Source of the DNA: Bacteroidales bacterium
Lineage (GTDB): Bacteria > Bacteroidota > Bacteroidia > Bacteroidales > Paludibacteraceae
Length of the DNA stretch: 64,000 bases
Direction of reading: 5' to 3'
NCBI GenBank assembly: GCA_022784645.1
Contig: JALFZG010000053.1
Coordinates: forward strand, 1-64,000
Below are positions 6,022-28,914 of the stretch, in pieces. Position numbers and translations under genes: made by a program. The notes beneath the pieces are model-generated. The model saw nothing but the letters and a program-made list of their open reading frames with translations. It had not been told where the DNA came from and ran no database searches. Positions within the stretch are counted from its first letter, which is position 1. Every line of letters begins with the position of its first letter.

Positions 6022-6053
6022 TTTGCATATTTGGAAAATAAAGTGTATCTTTG
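6022..6053 (+). promoter_or_regulatory. Bacteroidetes-type promoter (TTTG-N20-TATCTTTG)
   Basis: TTTG 6022-6025 and TATCTTTG 6046-6053; implies the ORF-track TTG start at 6051 is wrong. Confidence 0.7.
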
Positions 6054-6077
6054 CAGCAGTTTTTCAGCCATATCAGT

Positions 6078-7085
6078 ATGTCTGCTGTGTATGCATACGA
6101 TAAGCTCTATTCGCGATGCAGGCCGCTGGCAGATTGGATCATTCGTCATTCCTTCCGGCAACTGCGCTACATAGGGCTGGAGCGCATTCCTCAAGATGGC
6201 GCCATCATCTTCGCGCCAAATCACTGCAATGCGCTATGCGATGCATTGGCCGTATTGGTGATGGATAAGAACCCGAAAGTGTTTGCCGCAAGGGCAGATA
6301 TCTTTCGCAACAAACGGCAAGCCGCTCTGCTCCATTGGCTGAAGATAATCCCCATTCGGCGGATACGTGATGGAATAGATGAGGTGCGCAAAAACGACGA
6401 GACGATAGCACTGGCGGTAGAAACGCTTCAGCATGGCGTAGGTTTCTGCATGATGCCCGAAGGCACGCACCGCACCAAGCACTCGCTTCTGCCGCTCTCC
6501 AAGGGCATTTTCCGCATCGCCCTACAAGCTGCGGATGCGATGGATAAACCCGTGTATATCGTGCCTGTAGGGCTCGAATATGCCGATTATTTCCGGCTGT
6601 GGGACGCGCTGACGGTGCAGATTGGCGAACCGATAGACGTGAATGTTTTTCGTGAGCAACGCGCCTCGTTGGATCGGCCACAGTTGCTGCTCGCGCTCCG
6701 CGAAGAGCTCACGCTCCGTATGCGAAAAACCATTCTCTGGGTACCAGACGATGAACACTATGAAGAAAACTACCGCAAGCTGCTGATGGATCCGCCATCC
6801 CCTTATGCTGAGCTGCGGTCGACTACGTTTCCGAAAGGGTGGATCCGCTTGTTTCTGCTGCTTAGTTTGCCCCTTTTCCTGCTCTCTGCAACGCTCTCTC
6901 TGCCGATTTGGCTTACGCAATGGGCAGCATGCCGCAAGGTGAAAGACAAGGCTTTCTTGAACTCCGTAAGGATAGTCATCAACGTGCTGCTGATGCCGCT
7001 CTTCTTGATGCTCCCATGGCCTTTCTGGGCCTTCACGCAGGAGTGGCTGTTCCAGAGGCGGTGCTGCCGGGGCTTGGGGCGATAA
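6078..7085 (+). CDS. 1-acyl-sn-glycerol-3-phosphate acyltransferase family protein (PlsC-like)
   Basis: APNHCNALCD (NHxxxxD) and PEGTHR motifs; start moved to ATG 6078 because the upstream TTG lies within the -7 box. Confidence 0.8.
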   Translation: MSAVYAYDKLYSRCRPLADWIIRHSFRQLRYIGLERIPQDGAIIFAPNHCNALCDALAVLVMDKNPKVFAARADIFRNKRQAALLHWLKIIPIRRIRDGIDEVRKNDETIALAVETLQHGVGFCMMPEGTHRTKHSLLPLSKGIFRIALQAADAMDKPVYIVPVGLEYADYFRLWDALTVQIGEPIDVNVFREQRASLDRPQLLLALREELTLRMRKTILWVPDDEHYEENYRKLLMDPPSPYAELRSTTFPKGWIRLFLLLSLPLFLLSATLSLPIWLTQWAACRKVKDKAFLNSVRIVINVLLMPLFLMLPWPFWAFTQEWLFQRRCCRGLGR

Positions 7086-7376
7086 GGGATGGAGGCGCGT
7101 CCCACGCGCCCCTTATATAAACGCTCACGGTGGTTTCAGGGCCGGAGGCCGTTCCATTAGCGCTTCGCGGCTGGTTCTATATAGTTCCAAGCCCCTTCGG
7201 GGCGGGTATTGTTCGTTGGTAGCTCGGGATAGCTCCCTATATTATCTGCGTTCAACTGCCTCCGGCAGCAATCAATTGGAGCAAAGCTCCAACAATCAAT
7301 CAAGCTCTGCTTGACAATCAACCGGCCTTTGGCCGACAATCAATAGGAGCTCTGCTCCCAATCGGCCTTTGGCCGC
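7083..7376 (+). repeat. Array of about 10 triloop mini-hairpins with recurring CAATCAA spacer
   Basis: GGCGCGT-CCC-ACGCGCC, GGCC-GGA-GGCC, GCCCC-TTC-GGGGC, CTGCC-TCC-GGCAG, TTGGAGC-AAA-GCTCCAA, TCAAGC-TCT-GCTTGA, CGGCC-TTT-GGCCG, GGAGC-TCT-GCTCC, CGGCC-TTT-GGCCG. Confidence 0.8.
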
Positions 7377-7396: not shown

Positions 7397-8590
7397 ATGA
7401 TTATGATTCAAGTGTATTTTGTACTGGCAATGTATGTGTTGATGCCAGTGGTTATTATCCAAATTTTCAAGCGCTGGACATGGGCGCAAAAGATTGGTAC
7501 GGTACTGATGGCGTATGCTGTTGGTTTTATATTGGCGTTTTCGGGCGCCTGTTCGTTTGAGATGTATTCGCCAGCGGAGCAAACGCTGAGCAGGATGCAG
7601 CAGTTGCTGATGAGCGTGAGTGTGTCGCTTGCCATTCCGCTGATGCTATTCAACTGCGATTTTCAGTTGTGGGCAAAGTCGCTTCCAAAGACGCTTTGGG
7701 CCTTGGTAGGTGGTGTGCTGGCGGTAGTTATTGCGGTGGTGAGCGGCTATTGGGTGTTTCAGTTTACGGACATCCCCGAGTTGGACAAAGTGGCAGTCAT
7801 GCTTACGGGAATCTATACGGGCGGCACGATGAACTTCAACGCTTTGGGGTCAGCCCTCGGTGTGGATAAATCGGTGATGGCTATCGTGCTTGCGTTTCAG
7901 ATGCTGATCACCACTCCGTATATCGTGTTTGTGCTCGCGGGCGGCTATAAGGTGTATAGGGTTGTACTGCCGTATGACGATGGTATCAGCATCAGCGAGA
8001 GCATTCACCGAAATGGCAAACGTGCTACCGAAGTGGAGCGATACGACGGCATGATGCGCAAGCGCAATTTCTGGAGCATGATGCAGGCATTGTTGCTGAG
8101 CGTGCTTTTTCTGCTTGCGGGAGTGGGACTATCGATTTGGATAACGGGCACCATCAGCGAGATGGTGGTGATTCTCACGATTACGGCATTGGGCATTATT
8201 GCTTCGTTTTTCAAACCCGTTAGGCAACTGAGAAAAACGTTTGAGTTAGGGATGTTCTTCATCTTGGTGTTCTCGGTGATAGTCGCCTCGATGTTTGATT
8301 ACCGCAGCGTGAACGCGGGCTCGATGATGATTGGCGCGTTTGTAGCCTGGATAATCGGCGTGAGCACCTTGCTGCATTTGGGTTTCTGCCGTATGGGCAA
8401 AGTGAGCGGCGACCTCTTTACGATCAGTCAGGTGGGGCTCTTGTGCTCGCCTCCGTTTGTGCCTACCGTAGTAGGGGCTATGGGCAACAGGAAAGTGCTG
8501 ATTTCTGGCATGGTGGTAGGGCTGATGGGCTATGCCATCGGTACGTATCTTGGTATTGGTATCTACTATTTGTTTGACCTGCTGTTCTGA
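7397..8590 (+). CDS. DUF819 family membrane protein
   Basis: Polytopic; LTGIYTGGTMNFNALGSALGVDKSVMAIVLAFQMLITTPYIVFVL characteristic of the family. Confidence 0.75.
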   Translation: MIMIQVYFVLAMYVLMPVVIIQIFKRWTWAQKIGTVLMAYAVGFILAFSGACSFEMYSPAEQTLSRMQQLLMSVSVSLAIPLMLFNCDFQLWAKSLPKTLWALVGGVLAVVIAVVSGYWVFQFTDIPELDKVAVMLTGIYTGGTMNFNALGSALGVDKSVMAIVLAFQMLITTPYIVFVLAGGYKVYRVVLPYDDGISISESIHRNGKRATEVERYDGMMRKRNFWSMMQALLLSVLFLLAGVGLSIWITGTISEMVVILTITALGIIASFFKPVRQLRKTFELGMFFILVFSVIVASMFDYRSVNAGSMMIGAFVAWIIGVSTLLHLGFCRMGKVSGDLFTISQVGLLCSPPFVPTVVGAMGNRKVLISGMVVGLMGYAIGTYLGIGIYYLFDLLF

Positions 8591-28277: not shown

Positions 28278-28329
28278 CAACGGCCTTCGGCCTATTATCA
28301 AAATTTTTCAACGGCCTTAGGCCTATTAT
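28278..28329. repeat. Two copies of a 21-bp hairpin unit CAACGGCCTTMGGCCTATTAT
   Basis: 28278-28298 and 28309-28329, differing at the loop base. Confidence 0.85.
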
Positions 28330-28474
28330 TTTTTTCTGCAACCATCAGGAACGCTCCTTGGCGCTTGGAACTATTGGGATGCCCGCAGGGCTATTTTGTA
28401 TTGTTTGTTGGCAGGAGATAATATCTCCGTCTTCACTCATCCTCCGGCCCTGGACCGCCTTCAGGGCTCATTGC

Positions 28475-28540
28475 GGCTATTCGTGTGCGCGTGTGCGGTG
28501 ATAATGCGATGAGTGTGCTATGAGAGTGCGATGCGTTTCA
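28475..28540 (-). repeat. Six 11-nt units (minus strand: TGAAACGCATC|GCACTCTCATA|GCACACTCATC|GCATTATCACC|GCACACGCGCA|CACGAATAGCC)
   Basis: GATG/TATG/GATG/GGTG occur at exactly 11-nt spacing on plus (28530, 28519, 28508, 28497). Confidence 0.65.
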
Positions 28541-28671
28541 TTGGGGCCCCCAGAGAGCTATGCTCGAATGGGGAGAGGAGGAGATGCGGAGCGCTGCAGT
28601 CTCTGACCCGGGAAGAGACTTTCGTTAGCGAAGCCATCTCCGACGATTCGTGCCTCATCTGATTGCGAGTG

Positions 28672-28770: not shown

Positions 28771-28914
28771 ATTGCATGAATTGCAGAATTGCACATAATT
28801 GTCGGCGAGTATAGGTAAAAAAAAATGTCAATATATATATAATATTATATATTATATATATATTGGCCAAAATACCCAGCCTGCATGAATGTGCAATTCT
28901 GCAATTCATGCAAT
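28771..28914. repeat. Nested inverted repeat element
   Basis: 26-bp perfect arms ATTGCATGAATTGCAGAATTGCACAT (28771-28796) / 28889-28914; inner 15-bp perfect arms CAATATATATATAAT (28829-28843 / 28851-28865). Confidence 0.9.

Follow-up and report, generated by a model that had tools for sequence, protein, structure and literature searches.

Results

Several dispersed repeat families make up the plsC–DUF819 gap

The window analyzed here is a stretch of 64,000 nucleotides (64 kb) from a Bacteroidales genome of 2.29 Mb in 90 contigs (designated G000). The locus of interest lies between genes for a PlsC-like acyltransferase and a DUF819 membrane protein which, like a neighboring gene for an Omp85-superfamily protein, are encoded on the plus strand. 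Its features are as follows.

6051..7085, plus strand: gene for a PlsC-like acyltransferase, 5' of the array (Pfam PF01553, E 4e-17)
7094..7123, plus strand: hairpin GGCGCGT-CCC-ACGCGCC (7094-7110) followed by CTTATATAAACG; a third hairpin family
7140..7189, plus strand: GTTCCA-family piece comprising GGCC-GGA-GGCC, GTTCCA (7151-7156), GCGCTTCGCGG and GTTCCA (7184-7189); dozens of dispersed copies match
7191..7203, plus strand: hairpin GCCCC-TTC-GGGGC (C-GAA-G on the other strand)
7206..7251, plus strand: dispersed module TATTGTTCGTTGGTAGCTCGGGATAGCTCCCTATATTATCTGCGTT (TATTGTTCGTTGG...TATTATC), with ten further own-genome copies of 85-91% identity
7256..7375, plus strand: CAATCAA-family array of six triloop hairpins, CTGCC-TCC-GGCAG (7256-7268), TTGGAGC-AAA-GCTCCAA (7276-7292), TCAAGC-TCT-GCTTGA (7300-7314), CGGCC-TTT-GGCCG (7323-7335), GGAGC-TCT-GCTCC (7346-7358) and CGGCC-TTT-GGCCG (7363-7375)
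7397..8590, plus strand: DUF819 membrane protein gene, 21 nt past the array (Pfam PF05684, E 7e-29)

The six hairpins of the CAATCAA array are all those quoted in an earlier note on this DNA, and its estimate of about ten stems is fair when the hairpins at 7094-7110 and 7191-7203, the short stem GGCC-GGA-GGCC (7140-7150) and an imperfect GCGC-TTC-GCGG (7160-7170) are included. That note had described one array filling the gap; the hairpins are real, but the locus combines at least three dispersed repeat families. The gap sequence returns 62 matches in its own genome, in separate modules; copies related to the hairpin piece at 7094-7123 are found at G000:C51:1561, C49:30144 and C76:32558, and five of the 19 CAATCAA matches in the 64-kb window fall at 7269-7343.

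The interval 7083-7376 contains eight nonoverlapping perfect triloop hairpins with stems of at least 5 bp, which cover 114 of its 294 bases, as compared with 0.32 on average and at most 3 across 2000 dinucleotide shuffles. The segment 7256-7375 alone holds six (mean 0.15, maximum 3 in 5000 shuffles), and no 294-base stretch elsewhere in the 64-kb window carries more than three triloop hairpins. The density is thus far above the shuffled background, and many other copies exist (see below), so that neither of the two outcomes named in the earlier note as refuting its claim is borne out. RNA folding gives a z-score of −3.3. No real T run marks an intrinsic terminator in the gap, where a loose rule lists two weak plus-strand sites with the tails GGGTATTGTT and CTATGTTTAA. 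Rfam finds no family in the gap, two tRNAs being its sole matches in the window at the gathering score.

Two other parts of the window also carry palindromes. Positions 28310-28640, near a tRNA, form a second hairpin-rich stretch that includes AACGGCCTTAGGCCTATTATT and, separately, the TATTGTTTGTTGGCAGGAGATAATATCTCC module; the AACGGCCTTAGGCCTATTATT family has the form ACAACG-hairpin-TATTAT, and other copies carry changed loops. An AT-rich palindrome with 17-bp arms, CAATATATATATAATAT-TAT-ATATTATATATATATTG, lies at 28829-28865.

The GTTCCA family has a fixed spacer and interchangeable hairpins

De novo detection of hairpin clusters is too weak outside of enriched stretches, and background clusters of three also occur in relatives; we therefore used spacer patterns to search for further arrays. 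Tandem pairs of the form CGTTCCAN{12,18}CGTTCCA number 63 in the own genome, compared with 0 for the reversed control pattern, and the GTTCCA family, with a fixed spacer and hairpins of 10-18 nt, is the largest of the dispersed families represented at the locus. The CAATCAA-spacer family occupies five places in this genome, the others being at C51:3967, C59:2939, C82:3483 and C82:5564. Among GTTCCA intervals of 10-18 nt (n = 282), perfect triloop stems of 4 bp or more are present in 62%, vs 2.6% after letter shuffling; the stems include GCGC, GCCC, GGCC, AGCC, AGAGCC, AGCCC and GAGCC, the loops include TTC, TGC, GGA, AAA, GAT and AGA, and some intervals are bare spacers, e.g., GTTCCAGATG.

Within the genome, these hairpins conform to the earlier proposal that the stem varies while complementarity is kept: in the 4-bp class (n = 125), the third pair is C-G in 58, G-C in 57 and unpaired in 10. 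This variation is not unlimited, since about a dozen stem words recur, and units are thus copied as well as altered. The short inverted duplication put forward as one possible origin of the stems is not demonstrated, no loop inversions being evident in the GTTCCA family. The NNN that precedes each hairpin is linked to its own hairpin with a z of 24 and to the previous hairpin with a z of 6, so that the copied unit is NNN-hairpin-GTTCCA. Read on one strand, each unit consists of 5'-TGGAAC, a 4- to 7-bp stem, a mostly GNA triloop closed by C-G and a 3-nt tail, and units are arranged head to tail with a single spacer orientation; in the sister CAATCAA family, the constant part is TTGATTG.

The loops carry a signature of their own. 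The loop-closing pair is C-G in 201 of 205 GTTCCA hairpins, and 164 of 204 (80%) have C-GNA-G on one strand, vs 106 of 858 background hairpins in the same genome (12%); these loop and stem statistics are not independent, as copies share ancestry, and when each distinct stem plus loop is counted once, 19 of 34 have GNA. Of the 164 GNA loops, 142 are read on the TGGAAC strand and 22 on the GTTCCA one. Short G-C stems capped by a GNA loop are described as extraordinarily stable DNA mini-hairpins, with GCGAAGC melting near 78 °C (PMC4686876); this heptamer occurs in the commonest unit, GCGC-TTC-GCGC, whose opposite strand is GCGC-GAA-GCGC. A nearest-neighbor DNA energy model, in which GNA is not rewarded, assigns both strands equal energy, so the stability argument depends on the published melting data. 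The C-GNA-G bias is the hallmark of mini-hairpins that are very stable in single-stranded DNA. Most CAATCAA units of the window have other loops, which confines this clue to the GTTCCA family.

Arrays tend to follow stop codons in the sense orientation

Among the sampled stretches, GTTCCA arrays are sense with respect to the upstream gene in 23 cases vs 6 in G000 and in 14 vs 4 in the sister genome. An array starts no more than 40 nt from the upstream stop codon in 13 of 32 cases, where ≈3.9 are expected from uniform placement, whereas a downstream start on the same strand is that close in 0 of 25; these position counts are approximate, given simple ORF calls and the many sister-genome loci that share one repeated context at the ends of contigs. 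The stop codon even falls inside the first unit of several arrays (GTAGCCCTTCGGGC and GCGC-TAA-AGCGC), which suggests array growth into the ends of genes. Several arrays lie beside a small multicopy gene starting MAKKDKKVNAWQIIVAVFQALAALFGSLKKS, often at contig ends (L182 and L187). Furthermore, a repeated element of ≈700 nt often precedes GTTCCA arrays (L003, L005, L007, L008 and L043); it has GTGAACTTTGTGAAC or GTTACAAACGTTACA repeats and a ACATTTTAGAGTAAGG leader, and some copies adjoin an apparent DprA-like gene fragment.

Hairpins turn over faster than the flanking genes

The sister genome, CAMGMU01 (G448), harbors both the GTTCCA and CAATCAA families, and its adjacent plsC and DUF819 genes share ≈94% coding DNA identity with those of the window. 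Its intervening gap measures 293 nt and keeps both ends: the opening hairpin and the final three CAATCAA units are retained, with TAT replacing TCT in one loop. The middle, by contrast, is wholly different and lacks the GTTCCA piece of 7140-7189. The same gene pair is adjacent in G383, from the same genus, and in G420, from the same family, where the genes lie 46 and 57 nt apart, respectively; these short, hairpin-free gaps indicate that the array was inserted or grew in its own lineage.

Orthologous arrays at other sites likewise differ by whole hairpins between the two species. On contig C39, a TGGAAC array is present in both genomes, and its hairpins differ unit by unit, with a 134-nt extension in one; the C32 array behaves likewise. 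At one orthologous position, GCGC-GAA-GCGC faces GCCC-GAA-GGGC. The CAATCAA array of C59 is kept between the sisters with one loop and one stem change. Hairpins are therefore exchanged for different self-complementary ones much faster than the flanking genes change. None of the compared arrays showed the cleanly bounded insertion of one unit. Many apparent orthologous arrays matching L111 proved to be copies of a repeated element rather than orthologues and were set aside. Separately, short insertions between the sister genomes at L121:6142-6218, L194:7568-7765 and L267 near 14000 are bounded by GGTGGGTTCTAAAAATT...AATTTTTAGAACCCACC and resemble a small inverted-repeat element (MITE).

Two common units of the GTTCCA family, searched against 84,980 species genomes, gave 26 loci in one MAG, CAMGMU01, plus one contig assigned to Clostridia (CAMGPO01, L126), which shares 98.5% identity along 2.9 kb with a contig of CAMGMU01, probably through misbinning. 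A GTTCCA triple searched in 393 Bacteroidales genomes found, beyond the own genome, just unrelated tandem repeats. A pattern scan of IMG/VR gave 0 matches, one tested array had no match in plasmids and the window locus none in phages. A literature search of open-license papers found no description of the GTTCCA family. We conclude that this is a large, previously unlisted, REP-like and lineage-specific repeat family of two sister Bacteroidales species.

Discussion

The reading that we favor, with a probability of roughly 0.6, is that the locus represents one member of a dispersed, modular family of lineage-specific, REP-like mini-palindromes, a family that is renewed through single-stranded DNA hairpins and persists as 3'-UTR or intercistronic rows. 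We infer that the units are nonautonomous and would amplify and turn over when a strand exposed by replication or repair folds into very stable mini-hairpins. Units could then be duplicated, deleted and swapped through slippage, template switching and exchange at identical spacers, such that arrays would expand and change their hairpins quickly, yet stay hairpin arrays. They may persist where they are least harmful or mildly beneficial, that is, after stop codons and between cotranscribed genes, and the transcribed rows would probably make 3'-to-5' mRNA decay slower or give neighboring genes, here plsC and DUF819, partial independence of each other.

Selection acting on RNA is a possible but unlikely explanation. 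Rows of hairpins after stop codons would on this account serve as barriers to mRNA decay or as intercistronic regulators, for which only the ability to form a hairpin matters and stems covary freely. The sense orientation and stop-codon abutment, the complementarity held across many stem words, the location inside a probable plsC–DUF819 transcript and the RNA fold z-score are all consistent with it. However, the two relatives do without any array between the same genes, the GNA signature is a stability rule of DNA and not of RNA, and avoidance of promoters and coding sequence would by itself also leave mainly 3'-UTR positions.

We find it improbable that these are true REP or REPIN elements mobilized by a Y1 HUH (RAYT/TnpA-REP) transposase that is now lost or diverged. 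The one-strand layout of a 5' unpaired tag, stem, small loop and 3-nt tail is REP-like (cf. PMC3733652), the own genome encodes one Y1_Tnp protein (PF01797, at G000:C8:40967), and Bacteroidetes Y1 genes flanked by atypical structures have been reported (PMC6006769). Yet this single Y1 gene has no array in its 2.3-kb locus, the array-rich sister genome has no Y1 gene at all, the GTAG or CGTC tag is lacking and the arrays run head to tail rather than as inverted pairs.

A similarly small probability attaches to template switching inside each hairpin as a process that both generates and keeps perfect stems with neither selection nor transposition, a mechanism for which RNA genes provide documented cases (PMC8794818). 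In its favor, half-way forms between the two frequent units GCGC-TTC-GCGC and GCCC-TTC-GGGC are rare, and the corresponding pair occupies the one orthologous position noted above. Against it, the hallmark loop inversions are not apparent, the orientation of loops relative to the spacer being constant, and the linked NNN shows copying of whole units. Finally, a chance or composition artifact has practically no standing, being contradicted by the shuffles, the empty control pattern, the genome-wide copies and the sister genome, with nothing found in its favor.

A bolder reading is rather unlikely. The arrays may represent a self-renewing class of bacterial repeat in which what is conserved is the spacer and the capacity to form a C-GNA-G DNA mini-hairpin, while the stem itself is rewritten again and again; such a class would spread by hairpin formation itself, through slippage and template switching on single-stranded DNA, without a dedicated transposase and would even provide new stop codons for genes that it reaches.

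These findings bear on the origin and spread of REP-like palindromes for which no transposase is evident. Dozens of arrays with turned-over units at ≈94% coding identity, a C-GNA-G signature, a sense bias and frequent stop abutment, all in two sister species, allow RNA selection, HUH transposition, slippage and template switching each to be tested in its own right. They also imply that one genome is insufficient for intergenic hairpins in such genomes to be called conserved regulators.

Comparison with known palindromic repeats

The arrays are REP-like and lie outside the described REP super-families, in view of their different tag, the lack of a partner gene, the head-to-tail order and the many stems per array. 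As in REPs and BIMEs, they consist of high-copy, extragenic short palindromes with small loops (REP stems are 5-13 bp), an unpaired tag at one foot, a 3-nt tail as in some REP families, complementary stem variants and a clustered arrangement (PMC3733652). The tag, however, is TGGAAC or TTGATTG here and GTAG or CGTC in REPs; the constant part is GTTCCA/TGGAAC or CAATCAA, and GTA before the stem is one of many triplets. Units are tandem and head to tail, whereas REPINs are inverted REP pairs, and have 4- to 7-bp stems with several stem words per array. No associated transposase was found, and the RAYT gene flanked by palindromes that typifies a REPtron has no counterpart, the PF01797 gene of G000 being unflanked and G448 having none.

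Ordinary GTTCCA tandem repeats of other Bacteroidales (e.g., G373 and G321) share the regular CGTTCCA spacing, but they consist of a 21-mer that hardly varies and has no changing hairpins. Template-switch-maintained RNA hairpins (PMC8794818) likewise show compensated stem changes with few half-way forms, whereas in our arrays loop inversions are not evident and units are also copied between loci. Finally, the repetitive hairpin elements (RHE) of sponge mtDNA (PMC2800124) and the palindromes of Volvox (PMC2670323), analogous repeats of organelle genomes, are also tiny intergenic hairpins with kept stems and free loops, high GC content in some and a lineage-specific spread; the arrays described here differ in residing on a bacterial chromosome and in having a fixed spacer, a GNA loop bias and a sense bias to genes.
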